A stretch of DNA of 64,000 bases from Pseudomarimonas salicorniae. GTDB taxonomy: Bacteria > Pseudomonadota > Gammaproteobacteria > Xanthomonadales > Xanthomonadaceae. The stretch lies in assembly GCF_023156535.1 (NCBI RefSeq), contig NZ_JALNMH010000010.1:1-64000 (forward strand), in the 5' to 3' direction. Made by a program: the position numbers and the translations under genes. The first letter of the stretch is position 1; each line of letters begins with the position of its first letter. The notes below the pieces were generated by a model. The model saw nothing but the letters and a program-made list of their open reading frames with translations, was not told the DNA's origin and searched no databases. Below, in pieces: positions 11,306 through 56,647 of this stretch.

Positions 11306-12106
11306 GTGAGTTTCATCATGTTCCGAGCGCTCTGGGCATACCGGGGCTACGTGTTGGGTGCGGTGGTCCGCGAGTTCCAACTCAAGTATCGGGGGTCCGT
11401 GCTTGGTGTCCTGTGGCCCGTGTTGAACCCGCTCGCCATGATTCTGGTTTTCACCCTGGTCTTTGCAGCGGTCATGAAGCCGTCGTTGCCCGGGCAGGAG
11501 GCCAATCCGTTTGCCTACAGTGTGTATCTGTGCTCCGGAGTACTCACCTGGGGGCTGTTTGCGGAAATGCTGACTCGGCTGAACACCGTGTTCATCGAGA
11601 ACGGCAACCTCCTCAAGAAGTCGAGCTTTCCACGCATCTGCCTGCCGGTCATCGTAACGCTTTCGGCCCTGCTGAACTTCTCGATCGTCCTTGGTCTGTT
11701 CGTCGCGTTCCTTTTCATTACGGACAACTTTCCGGGCGCAGTCGCCCTCGGGTTCTTTCCCGTTCTGGCCGTGCAGATCCTGTTCACGCTTGGATTGGGC
11801 CTGCTGACGGGAACGTTGAACGTTTTCTTCCGCGATGTCGGGCAGTTTGTCGGGATCTGCCTGCAGTTCTGGTTCTGGCTGACCCCGATCGTATACGTGG
11901 CAACTATTCTCCCCGCCCCGGTGGCCGGGCTTCTGGAGTGGAATCCCATGTGGCATGTCATCGACGCCTATCACCGGGTCTTCTCCGAGCAGGCCTGGCC
12001 CGACCTCACTGCGTTGATTCCCCTGGCAATCGGGTCGCTGATGCTGCTTGTGCTGGCAGGCATCACCTTCCTGAGGCTTGCACCCGAAATGGTGGACGAG
12101 CTATGA
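11306..12106 (+). CDS. wzm: ABC-2 polysaccharide export permease (Wzm)
   Basis: The protein has 266 residues from GTG 11306; ATG 11318 (MFRALWAYRG) is an equally possible start giving 262. It has six predicted membrane helices. The N-terminal amphipathic region ends in REFQLKYRGSVLGVLWPVLN, the hallmark of ABC-2 exporters of O-antigen and teichoic acid chains, and FWFWLTPIVY lies in the fifth helix region. With Wzt it would move a lipid-linked polysaccharide across the inner membrane. It opens the lower-GC locus. Its stop overlaps a 49-codon frame by ATGA. The cognate ATPase is not adjacent but lies 12 kb away on the other strand. Confidence 0.92.
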   Translation: MSFIMFRALWAYRGYVLGAVVREFQLKYRGSVLGVLWPVLNPLAMILVFTLVFAAVMKPSLPGQEANPFAYSVYLCSGVLTWGLFAEMLTRLNTVFIENGNLLKKSSFPRICLPVIVTLSALLNFSIVLGLFVAFLFITDNFPGAVALGFFPVLAVQILFTLGLGLLTGTLNVFFRDVGQFVGICLQFWFWLTPIVYVATILPAPVAGLLEWNPMWHVIDAYHRVFSEQAWPDLTALIPLAIGSLMLLVLAGITFLRLAPEMVDEL

Positions 12107-12252
12107 ACCTGATAGGTGCTGACAGTCCAAGCGGACGCGTAATCGCCTCCGGTAATTCGGCCCCCCCGCATTGCTGGAATATCGACGGTCTTCGTTCGAC
12201 GCGCCGTGCCGGACCGCCGTCGCGGCATCGCTTCGGACGGCTGCGCCCATGA
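12103..12252 (+). CDS. 49-residue translationally coupled small ORF
   Basis: ATG 12103 overlaps the wzm stop as ATGA, and the TGA at 12250-12252 overlaps the next gene's ATG, again as ATGA. The peptide starts MNLIGADSPSGRVIASGNSA and is Arg/Pro/Gly-rich at the end. It has no membrane helix and no family I know. The precise coupling on both sides suggests that ribosomes pass through it. The sequence could be a real small protein, a remnant of a removed gene (wzt normally follows wzm), or just a coupling leader. Confidence 0.4.
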   Translation: MNLIGADSPSGRVIASGNSAPPHCWNIDGLRSTRRAGPPSRHRFGRLRP

Positions 12253-14375
12253 GCCCCGAGGGTCCGCTGCAGCTGGACGCTCGGCAAATTGCGGAACGTA
12301 TCCGAGCCGAGATCACCCGCAGGCGGTCGGCCGTGCCTGCGGATGAGCTGTTTCCAACCCCCGAGCCACTGCCTGCGTCAGACAGCTACCTGCTGGCTGA
12401 CCTGCTGGCGATCCACGACGCCGATTTCGTAAGACAGGCGTACCTCGCAATCCTGCGACGCGAGCCCGACCCTTCGGGTCTGGCCCATTACACTCGCATG
12501 ATCCGCGAAGCCAAATTGACCAAGGTGGAGACACTTGGTCGCCTCAGGTATTCGCCAGAGGGCCGGTCGCGCTCTGTTCGCATAAAGGGGCTTCTCCTGC
12601 CGCTGGCGGTTCAGCAGGTGATCAGGGTGCCGGTCATCGGATACTTGCTCGCTCTCGCGGTCGCCCTCCTCCGCCTGCCCCTGCTCGTACGCGGCTTCGC
12701 CAGGCTGGAGGCGCATACTCTTTGGCTGCAGCGACAGACGGGCGAGGCCTTCCGGGCGGCGGCGAGCGCGGGTGATGTCCACACGGAAAGAGCCACCAGG
12801 CTGGAGAGGGCTGCTCGGCAGGCGGCCGCGGAAGTTGCATCCCTCCAAGTCACTGCCAACACGCACGCGCAAAGACTTTCCGCTGTGGAATCTACCGCTG
12901 CGCAAGAGCAGGGCCGCACAAGCTCAGCGATCGCCGGATTGTCCCGATCGTTCGAGGAAATGAAGGGCGAGATCGAGGCGCGCGTTGCGGCGCTTCAGGC
13001 CTCACTGGCGACTGCAGACGAGGCAGCCGAGATTCGTTCCTGGATGGCTGATTTGAAGCCGCGTATCGAGCAGTCGCTGGAGGGGTCGGTCACGCTCTCA
13101 AGAAGAATGGCCGATCTGGAAGATTCGTCTTCGAAATGGGCGCTCGCCTTGGACGAGGCTCGGGGGCAGGTCCGAAGCATCGAGGCAAAAGCGAATGGCT
13201 TCGCAGAAGCGGCAACCGTACGGGTATCCGCCGCAGAGGCCAGGACACTGCGCGTGGCCGAGCGACTGGGGCGACTGGAAGAAGGGTTCAAGGCCAACGT
13301 CTCCCAACTCGAGGCTGACCGGGCTGGTGCGGCACGGCATCGGCGTGAGATCGCGACGGATCTATCCGACCTCGTCGATGCACTTCGCAAGGAGAGGAAT
13401 GACCGCGAGCATCTTACTGAGGATCTAGCCTCCCGGTTGAGCGGCCTCGAGCTCGCCGCCACCAGTAGCGATGAGCGCGTCGAAGCCACGCTGCAGGCGA
13501 TAGGGCGGGTCCGAGCCCGCCTTGAAGAGATGCAACGGCAATGGATTGAGCAGCGGGCGGCCACGCTTGAAGCTCAGAGGCAGATCAGTCGACTGATCGA
13601 TAGCGGTCGACTGCAGGATGACGGGGAGTCCGGGACCGCTACCGCCGGCCCGGACAAAGGCAAGCCAGAAGCAGCGGGCAGTCTCGATGCCTTCTACGTG
13701 GATTTCGAGGACCGCTTTCGCGGAGGGCGGGAGGAGATCATGCGCCGGGCGGCGTATTACCTTCCCCTCCTTCGTAAGGCCAGTGCAGGGCTGGAAGAAG
13801 CCCCTGTTCTGGACATCGGTTGCGGGCGTGGGGAGTTGCTTGAGTTGTTGTCGAAGGAGGGCATGGAGGCACGGGGCATCGATTTGAACACCGAGATGGT
13901 GGCCTGTTGTGAAGACCGCGGTCTGTTTGTGGCCAGGGCAGAAGCATTGGCTTACCTCTCCCGGACGGAATCCGGCTCTTTAGGAGCCGTAACAGCGATG
14001 CATGTCGTGGAGCATCTTCCCTTCGAGCAGCTGGTGGCTCTGGTCGACGAGTGCCACCGGGTCCTTCGTCCCGGGGGGGTCATGATCCTGGAAACACCCA
14101 ATCCGGAGAACATCCTTGTCGGCTCTTGCTACTTCTACATGGACCCCACGCACCGTAACCCAATTCCTCCGGCCTTGCTCCAGTTCATCGCAGAAGCCAG
14201 GGGTTTCGCCGCCGCCGAGATCCACAGACTGTCGGAGCACCGGGGCGAACCCATGGTCCGCGCGAGGATCGGGGAGGATCTCGAGGGGGCAGAGCAGGTG
14301 AATGCGGTGCTGGGGCAACTCCACCATATGCTTGCTTCCGCACCCGACTACGCGGTCGTAGCGCGGAAGGCGTGA
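12249..14375 (+). CDS. DUF4214 / coiled-coil / SAM methyltransferase protein, putative chain terminator
   Basis: The protein has 708 residues from ATG 12249. Residues 56-106 match DUF4214 (FVRQAYLAILRREPDPSGLA). Residues 114-150 are strongly hydrophobic (GYLLALAVALLRLPLLVRGF), fitting a membrane hairpin or anchor. Residues 150-470 are long heptad-like helices rich in Glu, Arg, Ala and Leu. From about 490 comes a Rossmann methyltransferase with VLDIGCGRGE (about 520), GIDLNTEM, HVVEHL (about 586) and LRPGGVMILETPNP. WbdD of E. coli O9a also joins a terminal methyltransferase to a coiled-coil length ruler, but in the opposite order and with a kinase, which is absent here. A role in capping and sizing the chain is inferred. 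Confidence 0.85.
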   Translation: MSPEGPLQLDARQIAERIRAEITRRRSAVPADELFPTPEPLPASDSYLLADLLAIHDADFVRQAYLAILRREPDPSGLAHYTRMIREAKLTKVETLGRLRYSPEGRSRSVRIKGLLLPLAVQQVIRVPVIGYLLALAVALLRLPLLVRGFARLEAHTLWLQRQTGEAFRAAASAGDVHTERATRLERAARQAAAEVASLQVTANTHAQRLSAVESTAAQEQGRTSSAIAGLSRSFEEMKGEIEARVAALQASLATADEAAEIRSWMADLKPRIEQSLEGSVTLSRRMADLEDSSSKWALALDEARGQVRSIEAKANGFAEAATVRVSAAEARTLRVAERLGRLEEGFKANVSQLEADRAGAARHRREIATDLSDLVDALRKERNDREHLTEDLASRLSGLELAATSSDERVEATLQAIGRVRARLEEMQRQWIEQRAATLEAQRQISRLIDSGRLQDDGESGTATAGPDKGKPEAAGSLDAFYVDFEDRFRGGREEIMRRAAYYLPLLRKASAGLEEAPVLDIGCGRGELLELLSKEGMEARGIDLNTEMVACCEDRGLFVARAEALAYLSRTESGSLGAVTAMHVVEHLPFEQLVALVDECHRVLRPGGVMILETPNPENILVGSCYFYMDPTHRNPIPPALLQFIAEARGFAAAEIHRLSEHRGEPMVRARIGEDLEGAEQVNAVLGQLHHMLASAPDYAVVARKA

Positions 14376-14382
14376 GCAGACT

Positions 14383-15528
14383 GTGCGTCTGATCCTGAAC
14401 GTTGATGCGATCTCGCCTCCCTTGACGGGAATCGGCAGATACGCTTTGGAGCTCGCCCGGGGAGTGCGGGGCAATCCTCGAGTCTCCGACGTGAAGTTCT
14501 TCTCCGCCTACCGCTGGGTTGACGACCCCGATCAGGCGCTTTCGGCAAACCGGCTTCTGGCCTCGATCAGGCGAAGCGTTCCGCTAAAGGGGCTCGCGTT
14601 GAAAGCGTATCTCGCGGGTCGTGATCTATGGTTTCGTCGGAGCATGAAGGGGCGATTCGGCGACTACCTGCTCCACTCTCCCAACTACCTGCTGATGCGA
14701 CACGCGGGACCCAGCGTGGTGACCATCCACGACTTTTCCTGGCTGCACTTCCCTGAACACCATCCTCGGGAGCGCGTAGAACTGATGAACCGTGAAATGC
14801 CCAGGGTGTTCGCCGAGGCCACGTGCTTCATCACCGACTCCGAGTTTGTAAGAGGCGAGGTCATCAGCATCGGGGGCGTCCGGCCGGACAAGGTCTACAC
14901 CGTTCCCCTCGGCGTCGACCGCGCCTTCCGCCCGCTTCCTGTGGAGGAGACAGCCCCGATTCTGCAAAGGTATGGTCTGTGCGGGCGGGCTTATCTGCTT
15001 GCCGTTGCGACGATCGAGCCCCGAAAGAATCTTGCGCGGCTCCTTCAGGCTTACTCGACTCTTCCGGTCTCGTTGCGCAGGAAACATCCGTTGGTGCTGG
15101 TCGGGGTAAGGGGTTGGCACACGGAGGCCATAGAACAGGTGATGGCGCCGTTGCTGGCCTCAGGTGAACTGGTGGTTCTCGGATACGTGACTGAAGGGGA
15201 CCTGCCGGCGCTTTATTCCGGGGCGCATGCCTTCGCGTTCGTATCGTTGCATGAAGGGTTCGGGCTCCCGCTCCTGGAAGCAATGGCCGCTGGTGTCCCT
15301 TGCGTCACCTCCAATGTGTCGTCGCTGCCCGAAGTCGGGGGCGAAGCGGCATTGCTGGTTTCGCCCGAGCAGGTAGAGTCCATCCGAGAAGGGTTGATCG
15401 CTGTCCTCTCTGATGAGGGCTGGCGTGGAGAAGCCCGACTCGCCGGGTTGGCGCGGGCCGCGCAGCACTCATGGTCGGCGTGCGTGGAGAACACCATCGA
15501 CGTATACGAAAGGGCGATCGCCGCATGA
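14383..15528 (+). CDS. GT4-family glycosyltransferase
   Basis: A 381-residue GT-B enzyme. It starts with GTG at 14383 (MRLILNVDAISPPLTGIGRY); the glycine-rich N-terminal loop TGIGRY is typical of mannosyl/rhamnosyl GT4 enzymes. TIEPRKNLARLL (about residue 207) and HEGFGLPLLEAMAAGVP (about 289), the EX7E donor-binding motif, are intact. No membrane segment is seen, so it acts at the cytoplasmic face on a nucleotide sugar. GDP-D-rhamnose or GDP-mannose is likely because rmd and gmd follow. Its TGA overlaps the rmd ATG. Confidence 0.92.
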   Translation: MRLILNVDAISPPLTGIGRYALELARGVRGNPRVSDVKFFSAYRWVDDPDQALSANRLLASIRRSVPLKGLALKAYLAGRDLWFRRSMKGRFGDYLLHSPNYLLMRHAGPSVVTIHDFSWLHFPEHHPRERVELMNREMPRVFAEATCFITDSEFVRGEVISIGGVRPDKVYTVPLGVDRAFRPLPVEETAPILQRYGLCGRAYLLAVATIEPRKNLARLLQAYSTLPVSLRRKHPLVLVGVRGWHTEAIEQVMAPLLASGELVVLGYVTEGDLPALYSGAHAFAFVSLHEGFGLPLLEAMAAGVPCVTSNVSSLPEVGGEAALLVSPEQVESIREGLIAVLSDEGWRGEARLAGLARAAQHSWSACVENTIDVYERAIAA

Positions 15529-16427
15529 AGAGACTGCTGGTTACAGGCGCCACAGGATTCGTCGGGCAGTGGGTCACTCGCTGCCTATCAACAGATGCCA
15601 GGCATCAATTCGAGGTGGTTCCGATGCCTACACTGGACATTCGGAACCTGGAGGCCGTCGTCGACGCAGTCAGCGAAATTCGCCCGAATGCGGTACTGCA
15701 TCTGGCCGCGCAGAGTTTCGTTCCCCGTTCGTTCGAGGCGCCTCGAGAAACACTCGAGATCAACCTGTTCGGAACACTCAATCTTCTCCAGGCCCTGCAG
15801 AGGGTGGCGTTCCCCGGACGAATGCTCTTTGTGAGTTCCGGCGACGTGTTCGGCCGGGTTCCGGATGCTGCGCTTCCCGTGAACGAGGCGTGGCAGGCTG
15901 AGCCAAGAAACCCCTACGCAGTGAGCAAGCTCGCGGCGGAGAAGCTCTGCCTCCAGTGGCATCACTCCGAAGGTATGGACGTCTGCATCGCGCGGCCCTT
16001 CAATCATGTGGGGCCAGGCCAGGACGACCGCTTCGTGCTTCCTTCCCTCGCCAGGCAGGTCGCCGAGATCTCATCCGGAGCCCGTGAGCCGATTGTCGAG
16101 GCGGGTGATATCGACGTTTCCAGAGACTTCACCGACGTGCGTGATGTCGTCGAGGCCTACGCTGCTATCCTCACCCTCGGCGTGTCGGGGCGCACCTATC
16201 TGATTGGTTCGGGGCGGGAAAGGAGCATTCGGGAGCTCCTGGTCAGGATGTGCGAGTTGGAAGGTGTCGAGGTCAAGATCCATCAGGATCCCCGCCGGAT
16301 GCGCCCCTCGGAACAACGACGCATGGTCGCTGATCCTCGGCTTCTCTACGAGGATACGGGCTGGCGCCCGCAAACGCCGATGGATGTCACGCTCAGGGAT
16401 ATTTTGGACTACGCAAGGAAGGATTGA
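15525..16427 (+). CDS. rmd: GDP-6-deoxy-D-mannose reductase (Rmd)
   Basis: A 300-residue short-chain epimerase/reductase. It starts MKRLLVTGATGFVGQWV with the NAD(P) glycine motif TGATGFVG. The catalytic YAVSK (in NPYAVSKLAAEKLC, about residue 128) follows a Ser-Ser-Gly region (FVSSGDVFG). It reduces GDP-4-keto-6-deoxymannose to GDP-D-rhamnose. It sits just before gmd, which makes the substrate. I chose ATG 15525, which overlaps the previous gene's stop, over the upstream ATG 15471 that reads through the GT4 gene. The assignment of Rmd rather than GDP-fucose synthase rests on the length, gmd pairing and A-band-like context. Confidence 0.87.
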   Translation: MKRLLVTGATGFVGQWVTRCLSTDARHQFEVVPMPTLDIRNLEAVVDAVSEIRPNAVLHLAAQSFVPRSFEAPRETLEINLFGTLNLLQALQRVAFPGRMLFVSSGDVFGRVPDAALPVNEAWQAEPRNPYAVSKLAAEKLCLQWHHSEGMDVCIARPFNHVGPGQDDRFVLPSLARQVAEISSGAREPIVEAGDIDVSRDFTDVRDVVEAYAAILTLGVSGRTYLIGSGRERSIRELLVRMCELEGVEVKIHQDPRRMRPSEQRRMVADPRLLYEDTGWRPQTPMDVTLRDILDYARKD

Positions 16428-17402
<975 letters not shown>

Positions 17403-17987: not shown

Positions 17988-18380
17988 ATGGCTGATGATC
18001 TGTCCGGTGAAGGAATCCGGATCGCCGCCGAGCTACCGAGCTTGCTCAGCCCGGAAGAGCGCGACTACCTTGATACCCTGGCCGACCGGACCTTCGTCGA
18101 CTTCGCCTACCGCGCCCTGCTGGGCCGGACCCCCGATCTTCCCGGGCTCCTTCACCATCTGGAGGTTCTGGAGAGGGGAGGGAGCAGGTGGCGGCTTCTC
18201 GGAGATCTCTCGTGCTGCGAAGAAGGCCGCCGGTTCTTTCGGCAGGAGGCCAGCTCCGCTGCGCCGCCCCGCGTTCTGCTGGACGCTGATCGATACCGAT
18301 CGATGACGCCTCGCGCCAGGCGAATACTGCGCGATCTTTCCAGCGCGATGGAATACCAACTGGAGGCCCAAGGTCGATGA
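17988..18380 (+). CDS. Small DUF4214 protein coupled to a glycosyltransferase
   Basis: A 130-residue protein starting MADDLSGEGIRIAAEL. The centre (FVDFAYRALLGRTPDLPGLL, about residues 35-54) matches the DUF4214 consensus seen at the N-terminus of the coiled-coil methyltransferase at 12249. No signal peptide or membrane segment is visible. Its last codons overlap the start of the 1,255-residue glycosyltransferase by ATGA. DUF4214 is often appended to glycan-modifying enzymes, so this may be a detached accessory module that holds the polymerase to a partner. That role is inferred. Confidence 0.72.
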   Translation: MADDLSGEGIRIAAELPSLLSPEERDYLDTLADRTFVDFAYRALLGRTPDLPGLLHHLEVLERGGSRWRLLGDLSCCEEGRRFFRQEASSAAPPRVLLDADRYRSMTPRARRILRDLSSAMEYQLEAQGR

Positions 18381-21300
18381 GAATCGTGCTCGACATGCAG
18401 GGCGCTCAAACGGAGAGCCGCTACCGCGGTATCGGCCGCTACGTCATGTCATTCGCGAAGGCAGTGGTGCGCAATCGAGGCCGGAACGAGGTCGTCCTCG
18501 CGCTTTCCGGGCTCTTTCCCGAAACCATCCAGCCAATCCGCGACGCTTTCGGCGGTCTGCTGCCAAACGAGTGCATCCGAGTCTGGTACGGTCCGCAGCC
18601 GGTTTGCGAGACGCAGCCGGGGAACGAGTCCCGAAGGAAGACATCCGAACTTCTCCGCGAGGCTTTCATTGAGAGCCTCGAGCCTGACGTCGTGCACGTC
18701 ACCAGTCTCTTCGAGGGCTATTGCGACGACGCTGTCACTAGTATCGGTCGAGTCGCTGGCAGGGCCAAGGTCAGCGTCACTCTTTACGATCTGATCCCCT
18801 TGCTCAATCCGGATCATTACCTCACTCCAAACCCTGCCTACAAGAAGTACTACGTGCGCAAGGTCGAGCACCTCCGCCGAGCCGACCTCTACCTTGCCAT
18901 TTCCCGCTTCAGTCGGGATGAGGGCGTCCAAGCGCTTGGCGTCGCGGACAGCAAGGTCGTGAACGTGTCCACCGCAGTCGACGCCGATTTTACGCCTCGT
19001 TCCCTCCAGCCTGAGGAGCGCGCAGCACTGCTGAGCCGTTTCGGTGTCCGGGACCGGTTCGTGCTCTATTCAGGGGGGGCGGACGAGCGGAAGAATCTCC
19101 CCCGGCTAATCGAGGCGTATGGAGCGCTGCCGTCCTCATTGAGGCGGCGATGCCAGCTGCTGTTCGCGGGCCGGATGCCCGAAGGCAATGTCGCTCAACT
19201 CATTGACGTCGCCCGCGGAGCGGGGCTTTCGCCCGATGAACTGCTCTTCACCGGCTACGTGAGCAATGAGGAGCTCGCGCAGCTGTACTCATGCTCCGAT
19301 CTGTATGCGTTCGCATCCTGGCACGAGGGATTCGGCCTGCCGGTCCTCGAAGCGATGGCATGCGGTGCCGCCGTGATCGGGTCGAACACTTCCAGTTTGC
19401 CCGAGGTCATTGGTCTGGAAGAGGCCCTGTTCGATCCCCACGATGTCTCCTCGATTGCGAACACACTTCGGAGGGGGCTGGAGGATGAGGCTTTCCGGAC
19501 CCGACTGAGGTCCCACGGCGCAGTACAGGCCCGAAAATTTTCCTGGGATGAGACCGCCCGGCGCAGCATCGAAGCTTGGGAGGCCCTCCACCATGGCGCT
19601 CAGCTACCTGCAGGGAAGCCAATCTCCGGGTTCGATTTCGCCGAACTCCGGGAAGCCCTGGCCGCTACCCTGAGCACCACCGGACTCGCCGATGTCGGCG
19701 CACTCGCGGTGATGCTGGCCAGCAACGAGAGCGCGGGTCTTCGTCGACAGCTACTCGTGGACGTCTCAGAACTATGCCAACGCGATGCGGCCACGGGTGT
19801 GCAACGCGTCGTCCGAAGCTATCTCAAACATCTGCTCAGGTCTCCCCCAGCGGGGTTCTCTGTAGAACCCGTCTTCGCTACCAGGGAGGAGGGCTATCGC
19901 TACGCGCGCAGGTTCACGGCGCGATTCATGGGATTGGACGAGGTCGCCGGGGAAGACGAGCCCATCTTCTGGCGCAGGGGAGATGTATTCCTCGGTCTCG
20001 ACATGCAGCACCACGTTCAACTGGCGCACCGGGACTTCATTCTAAAACTTGTCGAGCACGGCGTCTTGGTTCGATTCATCGTGCATGACCTGATTCCGGT
20101 CCGGTTCCCTGATCTGTTCAAGGATGGCGACGCCTCGGACTTGCATGCCAGCTGGCTTGAGATGATTGCCCGGACCGACGGTGCCATCTGCGTGTCCAGG
20201 GCCACGGCCGATGATTTTCAGGCTTGGATTGGCGAACGCTCCGGGGCAACCAGTCCGCGATTCAGGCTCGACTGGGTGCACAACGGGGCCGATTTCGATA
20301 CCGCTGCGTGCCCGGTCGGCTTGCTCGACATGCATGGGGCGCTGCTGGAAGGCCTTCGTGCTCGTCCGACCTTCCTGTGCGTGTCGACGATTGAGCCCCG
20401 GAAAGGTCAGGAGCAGATCCTCGATGCAGTGGAGATGCTCTGGAGTGAAGGCCGGGACGTCAACCTGGTCCTGGTGGGCAAGGAAGGCTGGAAGGTGGAG
20501 CGCCTTGCCACCCGTCTGCGAAACCATGTCGAGCAGGGGCAGCGGTTGTTCTGGCTGGAGGGGATCGAAGATGCCCTGCTGGAGAAGGTCTACCTCGCCA
20601 GCTCCTGCCTCGTTGCGGCCAGCATAAGTGAGGGTTTCGGGCTTTCGCTTATCGAAGCCGCCCGCCACGGCATTCCGATACTGGCCAGGGATATTCCGGT
20701 CTTTCGTGAAGTGGCGGGAGACAACGCGGCCTACTTCCGGGGAACGGATGCCGGGACTCTCGCTGAAGCGATGCGCGGACGGCTGGAGTCGATGGAAAGG
20801 GGCGACATGGTCTCGTCGAAGGGCATCGCGTGGTCGACCTGGGCCCAAAGCACCGAGCGACTGAAGAAGATTCTCGTTGGCGAAGGGTATCGGCCGCGCC
20901 AGCTGCTGGTCGATGTATCGGAGCTGGTCCAGCGTGATGCCAGGACCGGAATCCAGCGCGTTGTACGCGCCGTCCTGAAGGAGTGGCTCCGGGCACCGCC
21001 GGAGGGCCATATCGTCGAACCCGTCTACGCAACCGCGGGATCGGGATACCGCTATGCCCGGACATTCACTCGACGCTTCCTTGAACTCGATCAGCCGATG
21101 GGGGACGACGATCCGATCGATCACGCCCCGGGGGACACTTTCGTTGCCCTGGACCTGCAGCCGATCGTGCAGGTGGCGCGGCGGGACTGCTTCCGCCAGA
21201 TGCGCCGTGAGGGGGTATCCGTGCGGTTTGTTGTCTATGATCTGCTTTGTGTGCTGATGCCAAAGTTCTTCCCGGAGGGCGCGCAGGAGGGCTTCGAACG

Positions 21301-22144
21301 TTGGCTGGAGGTGGTGGCGGAGTCGGACGGTGCGGTATGCATCTCGGCAGCCGTTGCGCAGGAGCTTGAGCGCTGGATGGAGCAGCAGGCGGGCAGCCGC
21401 GCTTCTGCTTCCGCCTGCCGCGTCGACTGGTTCCATCTGGGGGCCGATGTCGACGCTTCGAATCCGTCCGTCGGCCTGCCTGCAGACGGAACCGAGGTGA
21501 TCGAGCAGCTTGCCGCGCGCCCCACCTTTCTGATGGTCGGAACGCTGGAGCCGCGCAAGGGACACGCACAGGTCCTCGCTGCTTTCGAGCACCTCTGGCA
21601 GTCAGGCGTGGACGTCAATCTGGCGGTCGTCGGCAAGCCGGGCTGGATGACCGAGCGCTTGGCCGACCGACTGGTGCGGCATGTCGAGACCGGCTCCAGG
21701 CTGTTCTGGCTCCCCTCCGCGAGCGATGAGTATCTCCAACTGATCTATGGGGCCAGCAGCTGTCTGATCGCGGCCTCTTACGGTGAAGGCTTCGGGCTGC
21801 CGTTGATCGAGGCTGCGCAGAACGGACTTCCGATCATCGCGCGCGACCTTCCCGTGTTCCGGGAGGTTGCAGGGGAGGCGGCGTACTACTTTGCGTCGGA
21901 TCATCCCAAGGGACTCAGTGATTCGATCGCCGACTGGCTCGGGCTCTACGCCCGAAACGCCCACCCCGTGTCGCAAGGCATGAGCTGGTTGACCTGGCGA
22001 GATGCGGCATCGCGACTGCGCGACCTTGTGATCCCTCTCGGTGGACGCGGGGATTCCCTGGCACTAGATCCCGGGATGGAGCCCGAGTCCCCATCGTCGC
22101 GCGTAGGGGGTAGAGTTCCGCGCGTCGGGGAACGAGTAGCGTGA
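18377..22144 (+). CDS. Three-module GT4 glycosyltransferase, putative polysaccharide polymerase
   Basis: This is a 1,255-residue protein with three GT4-like units. Unit 1 (about 1-413) starts MRIVLDMQGAQTESRYRGIG and has HEGFGLPVLEAM. Unit 2 (about 454-835) starts LLVDVSELCQRDAATGVQRV and has SEGFGLSLIEAA. Unit 3 (about 840-1225) starts LLVDVSELVQRDARTGIQRV and has GEGFGLPLIEAA. All three EX7E motifs are intact. Units 2 and 3 resemble each other closely and look like a tandem duplication, while unit 1 is a different GT4 subtype. Multi-domain GT4 proteins (for example WbdA) polymerise mannan or rhamnan repeats, one linkage per domain. The donor here is probably GDP-D-rhamnose. The 30-residue tail is low complexity. 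Confidence 0.92.
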   Translation: MRIVLDMQGAQTESRYRGIGRYVMSFAKAVVRNRGRNEVVLALSGLFPETIQPIRDAFGGLLPNECIRVWYGPQPVCETQPGNESRRKTSELLREAFIESLEPDVVHVTSLFEGYCDDAVTSIGRVAGRAKVSVTLYDLIPLLNPDHYLTPNPAYKKYYVRKVEHLRRADLYLAISRFSRDEGVQALGVADSKVVNVSTAVDADFTPRSLQPEERAALLSRFGVRDRFVLYSGGADERKNLPRLIEAYGALPSSLRRRCQLLFAGRMPEGNVAQLIDVARGAGLSPDELLFTGYVSNEELAQLYSCSDLYAFASWHEGFGLPVLEAMACGAAVIGSNTSSLPEVIGLEEALFDPHDVSSIANTLRRGLEDEAFRTRLRSHGAVQARKFSWDETARRSIEAWEALHHGAQLPAGKPISGFDFAELREALAATLSTTGLADVGALAVMLASNESAGLRRQLLVDVSELCQRDAATGVQRVVRSYLKHLLRSPPAGFSVEPVFATREEGYRYARRFTARFMGLDEVAGEDEPIFWRRGDVFLGLDMQHHVQLAHRDFILKLVEHGVLVRFIVHDLIPVRFPDLFKDGDASDLHASWLEMIARTDGAICVSRATADDFQAWIGERSGATSPRFRLDWVHNGADFDTAACPVGLLDMHGALLEGLRARPTFLCVSTIEPRKGQEQILDAVEMLWSEGRDVNLVLVGKEGWKVERLATRLRNHVEQGQRLFWLEGIEDALLEKVYLASSCLVAASISEGFGLSLIEAARHGIPILARDIPVFREVAGDNAAYFRGTDAGTLAEAMRGRLESMERGDMVSSKGIAWSTWAQSTERLKKILVGEGYRPRQLLVDVSELVQRDARTGIQRVVRAVLKEWLRAPPEGHIVEPVYATAGSGYRYARTFTRRFLELDQPMGDDDPIDHAPGDTFVALDLQPIVQVARRDCFRQMRREGVSVRFVVYDLLCVLMPKFFPEGAQEGFERWLEVVAESDGAVCISAAVAQELERWMEQQAGSRASASACRVDWFHLGADVDASNPSVGLPADGTEVIEQLAARPTFLMVGTLEPRKGHAQVLAAFEHLWQSGVDVNLAVVGKPGWMTERLADRLVRHVETGSRLFWLPSASDEYLQLIYGASSCLIAASYGEGFGLPLIEAAQNGLPIIARDLPVFREVAGEAAYYFASDHPKGLSDSIADWLGLYARNAHPVSQGMSWLTWRDAASRLRDLVIPLGGRGDSLALDPGMEPESPSSRVGGRVPRVGERVA

Positions 22145-23158: not shown

Positions 23159-23986
23159 TCACTCGAGTGTGTTGATGTCCAGCACCAACCCCACTTCCCC
23201 AAGATCATAGCGTCGGAGCTCTGACCAGCTGGCATCAAAGGCAACGATCTCCCCACGTGTCAGATCGCGCATTCCCCGCTCGGCGATCTCCGAGAGGCCT
23301 ACGTAGGTCACTCCGTCCGAGCGGCAGACGCCCCGGGGAAATTTCCCGGTCCGCACCTCATGGCCCCGTGTGCTCCGAAGACTTCCCTCCGCGGAACTGC
23401 ACAGGAAGAGGGCGTCTTCCTCCATCCAGAGGTCATGAGCCTGCTGCCCCAGAGGCAGCCGGTTCAGCAGGTTGAGGCTCGCCTCCTCGAAGAGCAGGAT
23501 CTCGCTGGGGCCGAAGTTGTGGGCGACCACTCCGATAGTCTCCCCGATAGGGTGAATGGTATTGAAGTGATTCACATCGCCGGTTCGATCGAGGTTCCGA
23601 CCCAGCGGATACCACCGAGTCCATTCCCCTGCCTGATGGACGGCCACGAAATTGTCGAATGAGCAGGTGACGTAGAGTCGTTCTCCGATCCTGCGAAGCT
23701 GATGCACGTCCCGCATCGGAAAGGGAGCAGTCATAGAGTCGGTCAGCGTCAGTTCCCGTGAGAAGACGAGGATCTCCGCTCTTTCATGCTCGCGGGGAAC
23801 CTCCGAGGAGACCATGCGGTTTCTAGCCGCCACCAATACGTCGTGGGGGCCTACATCAATGCCGTAGTACAGCCCCTTCCCGGAGTGCACGGTGTCCTGC
23901 TCTCCCGAGTGAGGGTCCAACAGCAGAAGCGACCGACTGGTGGTGACAAGGAGCCTCTTGCGCCGCGAGGCCGCCCCACTGGTCAT
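23159..23986 (-). CDS. Propeller-like protein of unknown function coupled to wzt
   Basis: A 275-residue soluble protein with no signal peptide. It is built of repeating strands with DVHQLRRIGERLYVTCSFDN, DVNHFNTIHPIGETIGVVAH and similar units, and reads like a six-bladed propeller of the DUF4915/TIGR03032 kind. The conserved His/Asn residues sit where such folds bind metal or ligand. Its ATG overlaps the wzt stop as ATGA, so expression is coupled to the exporter ATPase. The role is unknown; it could modify or sense the exported glycan. Family assignment is from appearance only. Confidence 0.68.
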   Translation of the reverse strand: MTSGAASRRKRLLVTTSRSLLLLDPHSGEQDTVHSGKGLYYGIDVGPHDVLVAARNRMVSSEVPREHERAEILVFSRELTLTDSMTAPFPMRDVHQLRRIGERLYVTCSFDNFVAVHQAGEWTRWYPLGRNLDRTGDVNHFNTIHPIGETIGVVAHNFGPSEILLFEEASLNLLNRLPLGQQAHDLWMEEDALFLCSSAEGSLRSTRGHEVRTGKFPRGVCRSDGVTYVGLSEIAERGMRDLTRGEIVAFDASWSELRRYDLGEVGLVLDINTLE

Positions 23987-25398
23987 GCTCCAGCCTCTCG
24001 ACGGTCATTCCAAGACACGGAGGGCGATAGATTCACCAATCCAGACCAGATCGGGTCCTCCAGATTCCGCGCAACCTTGAGTTTCGCGGCATTCTGCCGG
24101 CGGGACAGCATCGCCTCGAAACTGGCCTCGCCCAGCCCCCGGTTGGCCAAACCGACCGTGATCGAGTACTCGCCGGGCCCCAGCGGCAGGGCGAATCCGA
24201 ACCTCGTCACCCTGCGGCTTCCGGCGGACGCCGCGGGCATGGTCCGTCGCATGCAGTGGGTGTTGGTCATGAACACCGGTGACCCGAATCGATCGCGTAT
24301 CTGGAAGCCGACATGTGGCTCGTCCACCAGGCCGTGAAAGCTGGCCTCGATCTCGAGCTCAATGAACGCTCCGGAGGGTACAACTTCGGCCTCGACACCT
24401 TCCCACAGCAAACGGACCGACTCGATGGAAGCGAGATGGCTATGCACGTTGCCTCCGGAATCGTCGTCGGGGGCCTGCGGCCGCGGTTCTGGCGTGTTTA
24501 CTTCTCCGGTGTCCGGGACAGTCTGCGTCACAGTTTCGGGAGCCTCGGCAACCATCGCCGAGGATGTCGGCTGGGGCGAGGTGGAACGGAGCGCGATGGC
24601 CTGGAACTCGTCGATCACTTCCTTCGGAGTTCCGTCCCTAATCAGTCGGCCCTGGCCCAGAAGAATGGCGCGTTCGCACAGCGCATACACGGAGCCGAAA
24701 TCGTGCGTTACAAACAGGAGGGTAGTGCCTTCGGCACGAAAGCCACGAATCCTTTCAAAGCACTTCTGCTGGAAAAAGACATCACCCACCGAGAGTGCTT
24801 CGTCGATGATGAGAATATCCGGACGGACCTGCGTGGCGACGGCGAAAGCAAGGCGGACCTGCATTCCGCTGGAATAGGTTTTCAGTGGCTGCTCAAAATA
24901 GGTGCCAATCTGTGCAAACTCCTGAACGCCCTCCACGAGCGCAGGAGTGCCGGTGGGGTCGTGACCAAGCATTTGCAGCGCCATGATCGCGTTCTGCCGG
25001 CCTGTGAACTCAGGGTGGAATCCGATTCCGAGCTCCAGAAGTGCTGCGATCCGCCCGGCGACCTCAACGCGTCCCTCGCTGGGGTCGCAAGTACCGGCGA
25101 TCATCTTGAGCAGCGTGCTTTTTCCCGCTCCGTTGACTCCGATGATGGCCATGGATTGACCCTTCGGAACAGCGATGCTCACTCCGCGAAGAACCCAGGT
25201 CTCCTCGACGCCCTTCGACTCACCGAAGCCCAGCCAGTAGAGCAACCTCACCCAGCGATTCTGGAAGCGCCGATACACCTTGCCCAGCCCGCTGCAACGT
25301 ATCGCCAGGGGGAGCTGCGCGGATTCCGCGTCCTGAACGGCGTCCGCAGGAATCATGCCGCTCGGGTCGTTCGTGGATGTTTGTGGAGTCGAACTCAT
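23983..25398 (-). CDS. wzt: Polysaccharide export ATPase Wzt with carbohydrate-binding domain
   Basis: The protein has 471 residues. The ABC domain spans about 31-270, with Walker A GVNGAGKST (87), signature YSSGMQVRLAFA, Walker B ILIIDEALSVGD and the H-loop FVTHD. A Pro/Thr/Glu-rich linker (about 275-320) leads to a C-terminal beta-sandwich of the Wzt_C type (GAFIELEIEASFHG, VGFQIRDRFGSPVFMTNTH, LGPGEYSITVGLA). In E. coli O9a this domain recognises the capped chain end, so export depends on chain termination. The likely cap-making enzyme is the methyltransferase at 12249. The permease wzm is 12 kb away on the opposite strand. Confidence 0.94.
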   Translation of the reverse strand: MSSTPQTSTNDPSGMIPADAVQDAESAQLPLAIRCSGLGKVYRRFQNRWVRLLYWLGFGESKGVEETWVLRGVSIAVPKGQSMAIIGVNGAGKSTLLKMIAGTCDPSEGRVEVAGRIAALLELGIGFHPEFTGRQNAIMALQMLGHDPTGTPALVEGVQEFAQIGTYFEQPLKTYSSGMQVRLAFAVATQVRPDILIIDEALSVGDVFFQQKCFERIRGFRAEGTTLLFVTHDFGSVYALCERAILLGQGRLIRDGTPKEVIDEFQAIALRSTSPQPTSSAMVAEAPETVTQTVPDTGEVNTPEPRPQAPDDDSGGNVHSHLASIESVRLLWEGVEAEVVPSGAFIELEIEASFHGLVDEPHVGFQIRDRFGSPVFMTNTHCMRRTMPAASAGSRRVTRFGFALPLGPGEYSITVGLANRGLGEASFEAMLSRRQNAAKLKVARNLEDPIWSGLVNLSPSVSWNDRREAGA

Positions 25399-46112: not shown

Positions 46113-47522
46113 TTAGCCAGTGCGCCCGTAGACGTCTTCGAACCGCACGATATCGTCCTCGCCCAGGTAGCTCCCCGACTGGACTTCGATCAGCTCCAGC
46201 GGCAGCTTTCCGGGATTCTCCAGGCGATGAACCACTCCAAGGGGTATGTACGTACTCTGGTTTTCAGTCAGAAGCAGGGTTTCGTCACCACGGGTGACCT
46301 TGGCCGTGCCGCTCACCACGATCCAGTGCTCGGCCCGATGATGGTGCATCTGCAGGCTGAGCTGACCCCCCGGCTTGACCGTGATCCGTTTGACCTGGAA
46401 GCGTTCCCCGCTATCTATTGAATCGTATGCGCCCCAGGGGCGGTAAACTTTCCGGTGCCAGGTCGCGTGACTGCGCCCGCCCTGCTTGAGCTGTCCGACG
46501 ACGTCCTTGACCTTCTGCACCTGATCCCGATGCCCCACCATGATGGCATCGTCGGTCTCCACCACGACCACGTCTTCCAGACCCACCATGGCAATCAATC
46601 GCTGGCCGTAGGCGTAGGTGTTGCGGCAGTCGATGGCCAGGACATCGCCGCGGTGCGCGTTTCCGTTTGCGTCCTGGTCCGAGACCTCCCAGAGCGCAGA
46701 CCACGAACCGAGATCGCTCCAGCCGGCGTCGAGGGGCACGACTTCCACGCCCGAGCTGCGCTCCATGACCGCGTAATCGATCGAATCCGCCGGGCATGCG
46801 CTGAAGGCGTCGAGCTCCAGCCGGACAAAATCGCTGTCATGTTCCGCGCTCGACAGGGCTTCTCGACAGGCAGCGTGCATCTCCGGATGCAGCCGTTCCA
46901 GTTCGGCAAGGTAGTGAGAGGCCCGAAACAGGAACATGCCGCTGTTCCAGAAGTAACCACCCTCCGCCAGATATGCCTCCGCGGTGGTTGAATTGGGTTT
47001 CTCGACGAAGCGTTCCACCGGCATGGATTCGCCGGAGCCGCTGGCCTTGATATACCCATAGCCGGTTTCCGCCCTCGCCGGGACGATGCCGAAGGTGACC
47101 AGCGTTCCGCGTTCGTCGGCAGCACGGGCGGCGACCCCCACAGCGATGTGGAAGGCTTCCTCGTTCTTCAGGACATGGTCGGACGGGAGCACGAGCAGCA
47201 GGGGGTCTTCGCCTTCGGCCATGGCATGCATTGCGGCGACCGCAATGGCCGGTGCGGTGTTGCGTGCCACCGGCTCCAGCAGGATCCCCTGTGGCTTGGC
47301 ACCGACCTCCCGGAGTTGTTCGGCGACCATGAACCGATGTTCCTGGTTGGCGACGACGATCGGGCCGGAGGCCGTCAGCCGCGCTACCCGATTCCAGGTC
47401 GCCTGGAGCATGGTGTGCTCCCCGGTGAGGGGCAGAAACTGCTTGGGGTAGGCCTCGCGGGACAGCGGCCATAGCCGCGTGCCTGAGCCGCCGGAAAGGA
47501 TGACCGGGACAATGTTATGCAT
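46113..47522 (-). CDS. manC: Mannose-1-phosphate guanylyltransferase / mannose-6-phosphate isomerase
   Basis: A 469-residue bifunctional enzyme of full length. The N-terminal nucleotidyltransferase motif is GGSGTRLWPLSREAYPKQF (residue 11), with VLPSDH (about 113) and FVEKPN (about 171) further on. The C-terminal cupin (RPWGAYDSI, HHHRAEHWIVVSGTA, ENQSTYIPLGVVHRLENPG) holds the metal-binding isomerase site. It makes fructose-6-P into mannose-6-P and mannose-1-P into GDP-mannose, the precursor for gmd/rmd. The intermediate mutase step would be done by the enzyme at 55304. The gene lies 76 bases after the sulfotransferase-like gene on the same strand. Confidence 0.95.
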   Translation of the reverse strand: MHNIVPVILSGGSGTRLWPLSREAYPKQFLPLTGEHTMLQATWNRVARLTASGPIVVANQEHRFMVAEQLREVGAKPQGILLEPVARNTAPAIAVAAMHAMAEGEDPLLLVLPSDHVLKNEEAFHIAVGVAARAADERGTLVTFGIVPARAETGYGYIKASGSGESMPVERFVEKPNSTTAEAYLAEGGYFWNSGMFLFRASHYLAELERLHPEMHAACREALSSAEHDSDFVRLELDAFSACPADSIDYAVMERSSGVEVVPLDAGWSDLGSWSALWEVSDQDANGNAHRGDVLAIDCRNTYAYGQRLIAMVGLEDVVVVETDDAIMVGHRDQVQKVKDVVGQLKQGGRSHATWHRKVYRPWGAYDSIDSGERFQVKRITVKPGGQLSLQMHHHRAEHWIVVSGTAKVTRGDETLLLTENQSTYIPLGVVHRLENPGKLPLELIEVQSGSYLGEDDIVRFEDVYGRTG

Positions 47523-47597: not shown

Positions 47598-48830
47598 TCA
47601 AGCCTGGCTGAGAGCAGCCGCCGCCCGCGCAGCGCTATACACGTAGGTGGGAACATAGCTGTGCCCCTCAAACGCCCCCGGCCATCCGAAGCTGACGACG
47701 CTCAAGGTGGCCACCGACTGTTTCCAGTGCTGGCAGCTGTCCCTGTGGCTCAGTCCAGTGTGCAGGGATAGATCGATCTGGTAGTCGCCGGGACGCAGCA
47801 GGACATGAAACTTGATCGTCCACTCTGAGCGGCCAGCGGGAAGATCTATGGCTTCTCCGAGAAGCTTGCTGTTGGTGCCGAAGATGATCTGATCCTGGTG
47901 GTCCCGAAGCCCAAAGCCCAGGGTAGCCCCCTCCATGGGTCTGATTGCGTCGATGGTGATCCGGATTTCGCACCAATCTCCGCACTCGAAATGCGGCGAC
48001 TCGTCGCACGGCTTGCCATTCAGGCGAACGTCGGCAAACGCCGCCTCTTTCAGTCCGAAATCCAGCCGCGGGAGGAGAAGTTTCTCGTCGGCATCGGACC
48101 GCTCACGCGGATTCCCGGCCATGCTGAACGCGGAGCAATCGGACGAAACAGACAAGGCCCAATCGTAGAGGGCCCTGTCCATTTCGGTCAGCTCCTGCGC
48201 GAGTGCCAGATCTTCCTCACTCACCTCCTGCTTGTCGCCGGAGGCACTCACATTCAGTCGCGGTGCGCTCGCGGGACAGTCCGGGAGGTACTGGCGGAGC
48301 GCTTCACAGACGGAATCCAGCGACGACGTAAAGCCAACAATATCGAACTCGCACAACGCCGCCTTGGCGAAGTCGAGCTTCTGGGCGGGCGAGAGCGGCC
48401 CTGAGCAGGGGTCCTTCAGCGAGGAGAGCCAGTTGATGTAGAGCTGCCGGTAGTCGTGCTGCGGACGAACCCGCTGCGCCTCAAGGAATTCGGCTAGGCT
48501 CATTACACCCCCGGCTGTGACCAGCTCCTCGCGTTCATGGGGCGCCCCGCGGCGGATCTGGAAGTACTGGGAAATCAGCCGCTTCGCTGGATCGCGCAGC
48601 ACGGTGAGCGTGACGAAGCGCTGGCGAAGAACCGGCCACTCGCCCGGGAACACCGTGAGATGTCCCGATACGCTGCACGAAACTGGCAGCGTACCTAGGG
48701 CGGCCCGGATACTGACGAAATCTCGCTCAACGGCCTGGCCGTGGCTGCCGACGCGGATGGCATCCCTCAGCGAGGTGCCGCCAGTCTTTGGCATGTGGAA
48801 GAACAGGATTCTCGGAAGCAGTTTCGTCAC
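47598..48830 (-). CDS. Sulfotransferase fused to a Wzt_C-type carbohydrate-binding domain
   Basis: The protein has 410 residues. The N-terminus MTKLLPRILFFHMPKTGGTS contains the 5'-phosphosulfate loop PKTGGTSL (residue 14). TLTVLRDPAKRLIS (about 75) is the 3'-phosphate-binding segment, so PAPS should be the donor. From about 263 to 385 a separate beta-sandwich matches the Wzt C-terminal domain: FECGDWCEIRITIDAI, GFGLRDHQDQIIFGTNSKLL, LLRPGDYQIDLSLHTG. In Wzt this fold binds the polysaccharide end, so the enzyme may sulfate, or recognise, the exported chain. The gene is next to manC, and its composition is like locus A. Sulfation itself is inferred from motifs. Confidence 0.82.
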   Translation of the reverse strand: MTKLLPRILFFHMPKTGGTSLRDAIRVGSHGQAVERDFVSIRAALGTLPVSCSVSGHLTVFPGEWPVLRQRFVTLTVLRDPAKRLISQYFQIRRGAPHEREELVTAGGVMSLAEFLEAQRVRPQHDYRQLYINWLSSLKDPCSGPLSPAQKLDFAKAALCEFDIVGFTSSLDSVCEALRQYLPDCPASAPRLNVSASGDKQEVSEEDLALAQELTEMDRALYDWALSVSSDCSAFSMAGNPRERSDADEKLLLPRLDFGLKEAAFADVRLNGKPCDESPHFECGDWCEIRITIDAIRPMEGATLGFGLRDHQDQIIFGTNSKLLGEAIDLPAGRSEWTIKFHVLLRPGDYQIDLSLHTGLSHRDSCQHWKQSVATLSVVSFGWPGAFEGHSYVPTYVYSAARAAAALSQA

Positions 48831-49077: not shown

Positions 49078-49485
49078 TCAGTCATGAGCCTTGCTCTGCC
49101 TGAAGGTTAGATGCCTGTGCCCAATGTAGCTAGTTACTACCGGCACTACTACGCCAATGGCATGAGCGACAGTCTCCGGATGGAAGGACATCCCTGCGGC
49201 AGGAAAGAGGAGTCGTGCAAGGAACAGGCTTACCATAATGGTTTGCGCCACGGCCGCGAGGTTGATCAGCACGAACCACATTCCCTGCTCGATGATCGGG
49301 TTGGTAGCGGCCTTGAATACGAACAGCCGGTTAAGCAAGAAGGCGACGACCATTCCGATGCAGTAGGCGATGACGATGGCCGAGACATAGGGCATCCACC
49401 AGCTCAGCACGATCCGCGATCCGAAGTTGGCGAGCGCGGAGATACCGCCTGCGACCAGAAAAGCCATGAACTGCGTAGTCAGCAC
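49078..49485 (-). CDS. GtrA-family membrane protein
   Basis: The protein has 135 residues from GTG 49485 (VLTTQFMAFLVAGGISALAN); ATG 49467 would remove six residues of the first helix. Four membrane helices carry GtrA marks: FMAFLVAGGISALANFGSRI, FLLNRLFVFKA and SYIGHRHLTF. It probably flips a polyprenyl-phosphate sugar, here the D-arabinofuranose-type donor made by the upstream genes. The preceding gene's stop overlaps an ATG that starts a 14-codon frame (MSEFTAQQAVPVLC, stop) in another phase. That frame may be a leader, or the true N-terminus broken by a small indel. Confidence 0.8.
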   Translation of the reverse strand: MLTTQFMAFLVAGGISALANFGSRIVLSWWMPYVSAIVIAYCIGMVVAFLLNRLFVFKAATNPIIEQGMWFVLINLAAVAQTIMVSLFLARLLFPAAGMSFHPETVAHAIGVVVPVVTSYIGHRHLTFRQSKAHD

Positions 49486-49519
49486 AGGACGGGGACCGCT
49501 TGCTGGGCTGTGAACTCGC

Positions 49520-50824: not shown

Positions 50825-50825
50825 A

Positions 50826-51815
50826 TCAGCGCTTCAGGATCACGGAACTGTAGGTCGGGTCGGTATAGCTTTCGCGGATGGCTGCCTCGAAGGGGGTCTG
50901 CTTAACGCCGAAGACCGCTTCGGTGTCCACACCCTTGAAATCGTCCCCGGCGCTCAGCGCCTTCAGCTGATCCGCGGTGAACGGGGGCTTGCGCGAGAAG
51001 AGCGCATACGTCCTCAACAGGAAGGCGAAGAAGCCGATCGGGATGTGCACGATCAGCGTGCGCAGCTGCTTGACCTGCTTGATCGTGCGGATGATATCGA
51101 CATAGTCGATGCGGGTATCGCCGACGATGTCGTAGATCGCGCCTTCCGGCTGGTGGGCGATGCAGGCGGCAATGCAGCGGCAGAAGTCGCGCTCGTAGAG
51201 CGGCTGGCGCATGAAGCGGCCATCGCCGGGGATCGGGAACACCGGCGTGCGGGCCATGAAGCGCGACAGCCAGCCGAGGTGCTTGGGGTCGAACCAGCCG
51301 AACATCAGGGTGGGGCGCAGGATGCAGTGGGGCAGGCCGCTCTGAACCACCAAGGCTTCCTGGGCCTTCTTGGTCTCGGTGTAGTCGTCCTTGGCCACCG
51401 AGTTCACCACCGAGGAGCTGATATGCACCAGGTAGGGCACCTGATGGCGGTGGCAGGCATCGAGCACGTGTCGGGTCGCCTCGATATTGTTGCGGTCGAA
51501 CAGGTCGCGGGTCTTGCCGGTGATCTGCGCATGCAGTTGGACCACCACGGCGGCGCCTGCGAAGGCCTCTGCCCAGGCGCCGGGCTCGGCGAGATCGGCC
51601 TCGATCACCTCAACGTCAGGGTGTAGCCGCCGGAGGATGCCGAGGTTGTGGGCGTGCTTGTCGAGGGCGACCAGCCGGGTATAGCCCTGGGCCTTCAGCT
51701 CGACCACCAGGTTCTGGCCGACCAGGCCGGCGGCGCCGGTCAGCACGATACGCGCGTCCTTGGCGGCCTTGGCCGGCAGTGCCGTGACCGGGGTGGGGGG
51801 GTGGACGTCGCTCAC
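50826..51815 (-). CDS. NAD-dependent epimerase/dehydratase
   Basis: The protein has 329 residues from GTG 51815, overlapping the upstream stop as GTGA; the frame further upstream to 52193 is a shadow. The Rossmann motif is VLTGAAGLVGQNLV (about residue 25), then SSSVVNSVAKDDYTETKKAQ with the Tyr-x3-Lys pair. The C-terminal 60 residues include a hydrophobic IVHIPIGFFAFLLRTYALFS segment, which could bring the enzyme to the membrane, sensible for a lipid-linked substrate. It is part of the DprE1/DprE2 unit, and its precise reaction is unknown. Confidence 0.87.
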   Translation of the reverse strand: MSDVHPPTPVTALPAKAAKDARIVLTGAAGLVGQNLVVELKAQGYTRLVALDKHAHNLGILRRLHPDVEVIEADLAEPGAWAEAFAGAAVVVQLHAQITGKTRDLFDRNNIEATRHVLDACHRHQVPYLVHISSSVVNSVAKDDYTETKKAQEALVVQSGLPHCILRPTLMFGWFDPKHLGWLSRFMARTPVFPIPGDGRFMRQPLYERDFCRCIAACIAHQPEGAIYDIVGDTRIDYVDIIRTIKQVKQLRTLIVHIPIGFFAFLLRTYALFSRKPPFTADQLKALSAGDDFKGVDTEAVFGVKQTPFEAAIRESYTDPTYSSVILKR

Positions 51816-55303: not shown

Positions 55304-56647
55304 TCAGGCAATCATCTGGCGCAGCGCGTCAACCTGGCGGGCCAGCAGGCCTTCCTGCCCTCGGGTCTCCACATTCAAGCGCAGAACCGGCTCGGTGTTG
55401 GAGCCACGTAGATTGAAACGCCACTCGTCGAACTCGAGGGAGAGGCCGTCGGTGGAATCTACCCCCTTCGCCGCTGGCGCAAACTCGGACTGGACCCGGG
55501 CGATCTTCGCCTTGACATCTGCCACCTTGAAGTTGATTTCGCCGCTGCAGGGGAAGGCGGCCATCCGGGCCTCGACCAGGTTGGCAAGCGGCTTGCCGCT
55601 CCGAGAGATCAGAGCGGCAATCAGCAGCCAGGGAATCATTCCGGAGTCGCAGTAGGCGAAGTCCCGGAAGTAGTGGTGCGCGCTCATCTCACCGCCGTAG
55701 ACGGCATCCTCGGCGCGCATGCGCTCCTTGATGAAGGCATGACCGGTCTTGCTCTGCACGGGGACGCCGCCTGCGGCCTTCACCTGCTCGATGGTGTTCC
55801 ACGTGAGCCGCGGGTCATGAATGATCTTTGCGCCAGGGTGGCGGGCAAGCAGCGCTTCGGCCAGCAGGCCCACCAGGTAATAGCCCTCGATGAACCGCCC
55901 TGTGTGGTCGAAAAAGAAGCAGCGGTCGAAATCGCCGTCCCAGGCAATGCCGAAATCGGCGCCATGGGCCAGCACGGCATCGCGGGTGGCGTCACGACAC
56001 TCGGGCAGCAGCGGATTGGGGATGCCGTTCGGAAATCGCCCGTCGGGCTCGTGTTGAATGCGCACGAAGTCGAAGGGGAGGTGCCGGGCCAGCTGGTCCA
56101 CGATAAGGCCGGCGCCGCCGTTGCCCGGATTGCTGACGATCTTCAGTGGACGAAGCTCGGAAGGTTCCACGTAGCCGAGCAGATGGGCGATGTAGGCCGA
56201 TTTGTCCTCATCAACGCGCAACTGTCCGCGCTGGGCCGCGGGGTTCGGCAGGCCTGCTGCTGCGGCGTCGCGGATGGCAAGGAGGCCGGAGTCACCGGAA
56301 ATCGGACGGCTCTCCTCGCGAACCAGCTTCATCCCGTTGTAGCCCATCGGATTATGGCTGGCGGTGACCATCACGCCGCCCGCAGCACCCCGGTGCCAGG
56401 TCTGGAAGTACACCTCCTCGGTACCGCCAAGCCCGATGTCAATGACCTCCCGGCCCTGACGAATCAGGCCCTCTGCCAGAGCAGCCTGCAGACCCGGACT
56501 GGTCAGGCGGACGTCGCGGCCCAGCACCACGGGGCCCGGCCCCATCTGCGAGGAGAGAGCTGCGCCGATGCGCAGGGCGAGGTCCTCATTGAGCTCATCC
56601 GGCACTCGGCCGCGGATGTCGTAGGCCTTGAAACAGGGCAGGGTCAT
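55304..56647 (-). CDS. cpsG: Phosphomannomutase (CpsG/ManB type)
   Basis: A 447-residue alpha-D-phosphohexomutase of full length, starting [20 protein letters not shown]. The phosphoserine loop is [14 protein letters not shown] (Ser about 96), the metal loop DGDFDRC is near 240, the sugar loop [13 protein letters not shown] near 320 and the phosphate loop [14 protein letters not shown] near 420. The GEMSAHHYF form points to phosphomannomutase rather than glucosamine mutase. It converts mannose-6-P to mannose-1-P for ManC, and perhaps glucose-6-P to glucose-1-P. Five bases separate it from the UbiA gene, so it may head the locus B operon. Confidence 0.92.

Follow-up and report, generated by a model that had tools for sequence, protein, structure and literature searches.

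A predicted sulfotransferase fused to a Wzt-type carbohydrate-binding domain in a polysaccharide locus of Pseudomarimonas salicorniae

Background

Why should an enzyme predicted to transfer sulfate carry the kind of domain with which an ABC exporter reads its polysaccharide? The question is raised by a gene found in the genome of Pseudomarimonas salicorniae, within the whole stretch of 64,000 nucleotides analysed here, hereafter the window. A preliminary description, made from the letters alone, had proposed that a sulfotransferase is joined there to a Wzt_C-like domain, and that the enzyme may act on the same chain end as the exporter, producing a sulfated terminus or a second termination signal.

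Domains of the Wzt type are known to recognize chain caps, and still work in trans when cut off (PMC9445017). In the Aquifex aeolicus domain, the 3-O-methyl-mannose cap is held by Asn313, His350 and Trp362, and Leu300, Thr346, Ala348 and Trp362 form the methyl pocket: plain mannose is not bound, and LPS binding is abolished by the W362L substitution (PMC9445017).

Results

The fusion gene and its product

Profile comparison and AlphaFold2/Foldseek agree on a sulfotransferase followed by a Wzt_C domain, as the preliminary description had it, Pfam giving a clear match for the second half and a borderline one for the first; its coordinates were also correct, and the gene lies on the minus strand (Table 1). 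The GTG start is preceded by a good ribosome-binding site, GGAGAGG. The AlphaFold2 model, of mean pLDDT 79, was matched by Foldseek to the Aquifex Wzt domain (8dky; TM 0.79 of target, E 1.7e-13) and to the heparan sulfate 2-O-sulfotransferase HS2ST (4ndz; TM 0.54). The protein has no Pfam match to the ABC ATPase domain ABC_tran, and is therefore not a Wzt exporter ATPase; no membrane segment was found in it (maximal 19-residue hydropathy 1.24), and the long coiled coil of a WbdD-type ruler is absent from the model. Origin as a chimera or by frameshift is excluded by the single intact frame, the ribosome-binding site and the same domain order in three other genomes. Since the architecture recurs in these, it can be ascribed neither to chance matching nor to faulty assembly.

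Table 1. Features of the fusion gene and of the surrounding glycan locus (window positions)
Feature	Coordinates	Strand	Remarks
Wzm (ABC2_membrane)	11306..12106	+	E=6.6e-20
DUF4214, coiled coil and methyltransferase	12171..14375	+	likely methyl chain terminator/ruler
Rmd-like reductase (GDP-D-rhamnose)	15471..16427	+	Pfam family and position
Gmd, GDP-mannose 4,6-dehydratase	16431..17402	+	
Multi-domain GT4 glycosyltransferase	18377..22144	+	polymerase candidate
Wzt of the window locus, divergent C-terminal domain	23983..25398	minus	lacks Trp362 and two cap-site His
manC, GDP-mannose synthesis	46113..47522	minus	next gene downstream of the fusion
Sulfotransferase-Wzt_C fusion gene	47598..48830	minus	410 aa, GTG start
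Wzt_C carbohydrate-binding domain, residues 257-380	47691..48062	minus	Pfam, alignment to Aquifex Wzt
Sulfotransferase domain, residues 7-235	48126..48812	minus	PAPS motifs, His57 alignment
Phosphomannomutase/phosphoglucomutase	55304..56647	minus	

The sulfotransferase half

By Pfam alone, the sulfotransferase half of the window protein is marginal: Sulfotransfer_2 (PF03567) matches residues 8-120 with E=3.6e-4 and 21.2 bits, just below the cut-off of 22. The fusions of two MAGs, one of Lysobacter (L106) and one alphaproteobacterial (L046), score 28.9 and 41.2 bits. A profile of 21 relatives, compared with the PDB, matches HS6ST (1.7e-27) and HS2ST (2.1e-21). The PAPS motifs already noticed in the preliminary description, as PKTGGTSL and VLRDP, were recognized as PKTGGT at residues 14-19 and RDPxxRxxS at residues 79-87, and His57 aligns with His142, the catalytic histidine of HS2ST, whose replacement by Ala leaves less than 1% of the activity (PMC6094399). 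Both motifs and His57 are invariant or nearly so among the 21 relatives. On the alignments and the model, the first half is predicted to be a PAPS-type glycan sulfotransferase, nearest to the heparan sulfate 2-O- and 6-O-sulfotransferases (PF03567; 4ndz, 5t05), with which it has in common the PAPS motifs, the catalytic-base His and the fold. The window protein differs from these enzymes in being bacterial, in having no detected membrane anchor, in its C-terminal glycan-binding domain and in the acceptor to be expected.

PAPS is a cytoplasmic compound; this, together with the lack of a detected membrane segment, would place the predicted sulfation before export. In both Lysobacter fusion loci, a divergent cysD-cysNC pair, whose product is this sulfate donor, adjoins the fusion (L047 7076-9786; L106 7171-9872), CysD being assigned from a PF01507 match and its position beside cysNC. 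As a second CysNC is encoded elsewhere in the L. silvestris genome, the pair, found beside two of the four known fusions, looks dedicated. In the window genome CysNC is encoded on another contig, and no cys genes adjoin the fusion.

The Wzt_C half and its sugar site

The preliminary description had made its reading of the tail depend on a profile match to Wzt_C (PF14524): the match is significant (E=1.4e-18), scoring 67.7 bits where the cut-off lies at 30.4. Among solved chains, the Aquifex Wzt binding domains come nearest in sequence (8dky/6o14; E=1.6e-15). The fold is shared at about 30% identity, the partner being an ABC ATPase in Aquifex and a sulfotransferase here. In the alignment, Asn320, His357, His362, His368 and Trp369 of the fusion correspond to Aquifex Asn313, His350, His355, His361 and Trp362, while Leu300, Thr346 and Ala348 are replaced by Gly307, Asp353 and Ser355, and Val380 is aligned with a Glu.

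The comparison extended to 62 exporter domains. The equivalents of Asn313, His355 and Trp362 are present in all four fusions, and that of Trp362 also in 60 of the exporters, the two lacking it being the window Wzt and one of the two found in the alphaproteobacterial fusion locus. Position 300, hydrophobic in 57 of the 62, is G, G, G and E in the fusions; position 348, Ala in 49, is Ser in all four. The His350 equivalent is Ile in both Lysobacter fusions. As read from the alignment, the fused domain has lost the methyl pocket and retained the other contacts, which suggests that it can still hold a sugar like that of Aquifex, probably without selecting the methyl cap. The pocket changes are common to four domains that form a single clade, and may thus reflect one event.

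The exporter of the window

The tail of the window Wzt, which the preliminary description had singled out for comparison, does share the fold of the fused domain (97% probability by profile comparison), but is not closely akin to it: BLASTP finds 25% identity over 80 residues, with E=6e-5 for this single comparison, and in the binding-domain tree the branch leading to the window Wzt is very long. Since the Trp and the two His of the sugar site are missing from this tail, the exporter and the fusion enzyme are unlikely to read the same end. The initial proposal, that the fusion acts on the end read by the exporter, is thus not supported, and the O3/methyl pocket of the fused domain is altered as well. 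What is supported is a transferase with the exporter's fold in a locus of the ABC-exporter type, in agreement with the retained ring-holding residues and with the cysD-cysNC pair beside two of the four copies. A sulfated terminus is a possible product; a second termination signal is unlikely, as the locus already encodes a coiled-coil methyltransferase.

The surrounding glycan locus

From its gene content, the locus would direct synthesis of a D-mannose/D-rhamnose polysaccharide, similar to the D-Rha/D-Man O antigen of Aquifex. A counterpart of the coiled-coil methyltransferase is also present in the L. silvestris locus; with such an enzyme in place, sulfate is hardly required to signal termination. 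Content and order of the segment 11306-25398 (wzm, methyltransferase, GT4, rmd, gmd, poly-GT) resemble those of L. silvestris (L025), where wzt lies between wzm and the methyltransferase; in the window wzt is missing from that place, and the divergent copy is found at 23983 on the other strand.

Two neighboring segments may be mentioned. Positions 49078-55298 encode a GtrA protein, a DprE2-like SDR, a DprE1-like oxidase (NCBIfam, below cut-off) and a UbiA-HAD prenyltransferase, and by analogy look like the three-component pentofuranose side-chain system described in PMC11127046. Positions 40922-45766 encode a 1614 aa protein, with twelve DUF7933 and six DUF11 repeats, which is probably located at the surface.

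Distribution and origin of the fusion

A domain co-occurrence search, proposed in the preliminary description, identified the same fusion in three more genomes, those of Lysobacter silvestris (G049, L047), of the Lysobacter MAG and of the alphaproteobacterial MAG; all four copies fall within glycan-synthesis loci. The architecture is present in at least four genomes among the matches listed in a scan of 84,980 species, two of the four being MAGs. Within the family, it was found in 2 of 249 genomes, the window genome and L. silvestris, and no further fusion was detected in samples of 369 genomes of the class, 399 of the phylum and 385 of a second class (centred on G708): these figures exclude a wide domain family. 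In each of the three genomes of the same genus a single, weak Wzt_C match was found, which indicates that the genus as a whole does not share the window cluster.

Some candidates were discarded. The larger Wzt_C proteins (open frames of 566-720 aa) could have been other enzyme fusions, and all six that were scanned are of the ABC-Wzt_C type; a planctomycete sulfotransferase (L058) has no Wzt_C match. On plasmids, the matches to sulfotransferases and to exporters were all separate. No published description of a sulfotransferase-Wzt_C fusion was found in the literature searched.

A wzt gene is located on the same contig in all four genomes, at 24 kb from the fusion in the window, at about 22 kb in L. 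silvestris, about 24 kb in the Lysobacter MAG and less than 2 kb in the alphaproteobacterial MAG. In the latter, wzm is followed by two wzt genes, one gene that matches nothing in Pfam, an FkbM methyltransferase, the fusion and then two methyltransferases; the tandem wzt pair (L046 5281-8152) consists of a first copy without and a second one with the cap-site Trp.

In the binding-domain tree the four fused domains form one clade beside the Aquifex-type domains (99/95), on long branches. The sulfotransferase-domain tree leaves the four fusions ungrouped, and the AU test does not reject a single clade (p=0.277). Two independent fusion events were discarded on the basis of this test and of the grouping in the binding-domain tree.

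Discussion

The fusion described here is a rare new combination of parts already known. Such a pairing suggests that the enzyme grips the growing chain during modification, and the mechanism that we consider on the whole probable, reading the sequence of the protein and of its locus, is that of a soluble, cytoplasmic, PAPS-dependent sulfotransferase, which would dock through its Wzt-type tail on a lipid-linked D-mannose/D-rhamnose O-polysaccharide before export. The tail would dock at or near the non-reducing end, binding a form devoid of the 3-O-methyl group, that is, the acceptor and not the product that already bears the cap; sulfate would then be transferred, in the cytoplasm, to a nearby hydroxyl, and would serve as a surface charge or epitope on the exported chain. 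Termination and export licensing would stay with the coiled-coil methyltransferase and with Wzt.

The nearest precedent, by analogy, for a fused module that attaches to unmodified O polysaccharide is ORF12 of Citrobacter youngae O1, a GT-C enzyme whose module binds the unmodified polymer and is dispensable (PMC11127046). Both proteins combine an O-polysaccharide-modifying enzyme with a fused carbohydrate-binding module; ORF12, however, is an extracytoplasmic glycosyltransferase, while the fusion is a predicted cytoplasmic sulfotransferase with a module of the exporter type. Following the same analogy, the tail of the fusion may be dispensable too. WbdD of E. coli O9a, a terminator with a coiled-coil ruler, likewise belongs to an ABC-dependent pathway and works on the chain while it is still growing and not yet exported, but its role in the window would fall to the coiled-coil methyltransferase, not to the fusion.

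Two Paraburkholderia sulfotransferases (L059 and L070) also feature a beta-sandwich tail and adjoin manC, wzm and wzt. Their Ig-like tail is not a Wzt_C domain, and matches instead a third domain found in the Lysobacter fusions: a shared tail of about 125 aa, with no Pfam match (L047 11291-11686, L106 11300-11695, L059 10796-11188, L070 6343-6738), whose fold resembles Ig-like and carbohydrate-binding domains only weakly. Taken together, the Paraburkholderia and Lysobacter tails indicate that tailed sulfotransferases recur in ABC-type glycan loci.

These proteins also bear on a different role for the tail, as a general anchor raising the local concentration of the enzyme, with sulfation of internal or side-chain sugars and no relevance of the chain end. 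We regard this as possible, if somewhat unlikely: the ORF12 module binds the backbone and can be dispensed with (PMC11127046), and equivalent loci of Paraburkholderia use a different beta-sandwich tail, the Lysobacter fusions having both; yet the residues kept in the fused domain are those which grip the terminal sugar in the Aquifex complex.

Sulfate might otherwise be the chain cap itself, in which case sulfation of the terminal sugar would stop elongation and Wzt would read the product. The cap-reading function known for Wzt-type domains (PMC9445017), the retained cap-site Trp and Asn, and the position of the alphaproteobacterial fusion close behind two wzt genes are all in line with such a cap. 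We consider it improbable, however, because a terminator-type methyltransferase is present in both the window and L. silvestris loci, the window Wzt domain is devoid of the sugar-site residues, and the fused domain clusters with Aquifex-type domains and not clearly with any local exporter; moreover, the Asp gained in the pocket would make sulfate unfavourable there, and the fusion is confined to so few genomes of the family.

The altered methyl pocket, and the loss of His350 in two of four copies, would also fit a relic, or a module retained for its fold and used in dimerisation, with no role in sugar binding. This is very unlikely, given that two bacterial classes, at about 30% identity, have conserved the equivalents of Trp, Asn, His355, Cys and His361. 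Hardly any weight can be given to the idea that the enzyme is both modifier and export licence, binding the end, sulfating it and presenting the chain to Wzm-Wzt in trans as a sulfate-coupled quality control, which stems from the fused domain being the only Wzt_C of the genome with an intact Aquifex-type sugar site, lost in the exporter. A lipid or other small molecule as acceptor, conceivable because sulfotransferase families are diverse and sequence does not reveal the acceptor, is most improbable in view of the best matches being polysaccharide sulfotransferases, of the carbohydrate-binding tail and of the glycan loci in which every copy resides.

Conclusions

Under the favoured reading, of an enzyme docked on the unexported chain, the fusion points to O polysaccharides of Lysobacter-type bacteria that are sulfated while still in the cytoplasm, ahead of ABC export, and to the reuse of the exporter's end-reading domain on a modifying enzyme. 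If the fused domain does bind the uncapped end, its comparison with the exporter domains would indicate which residues make Wzt read the cap.
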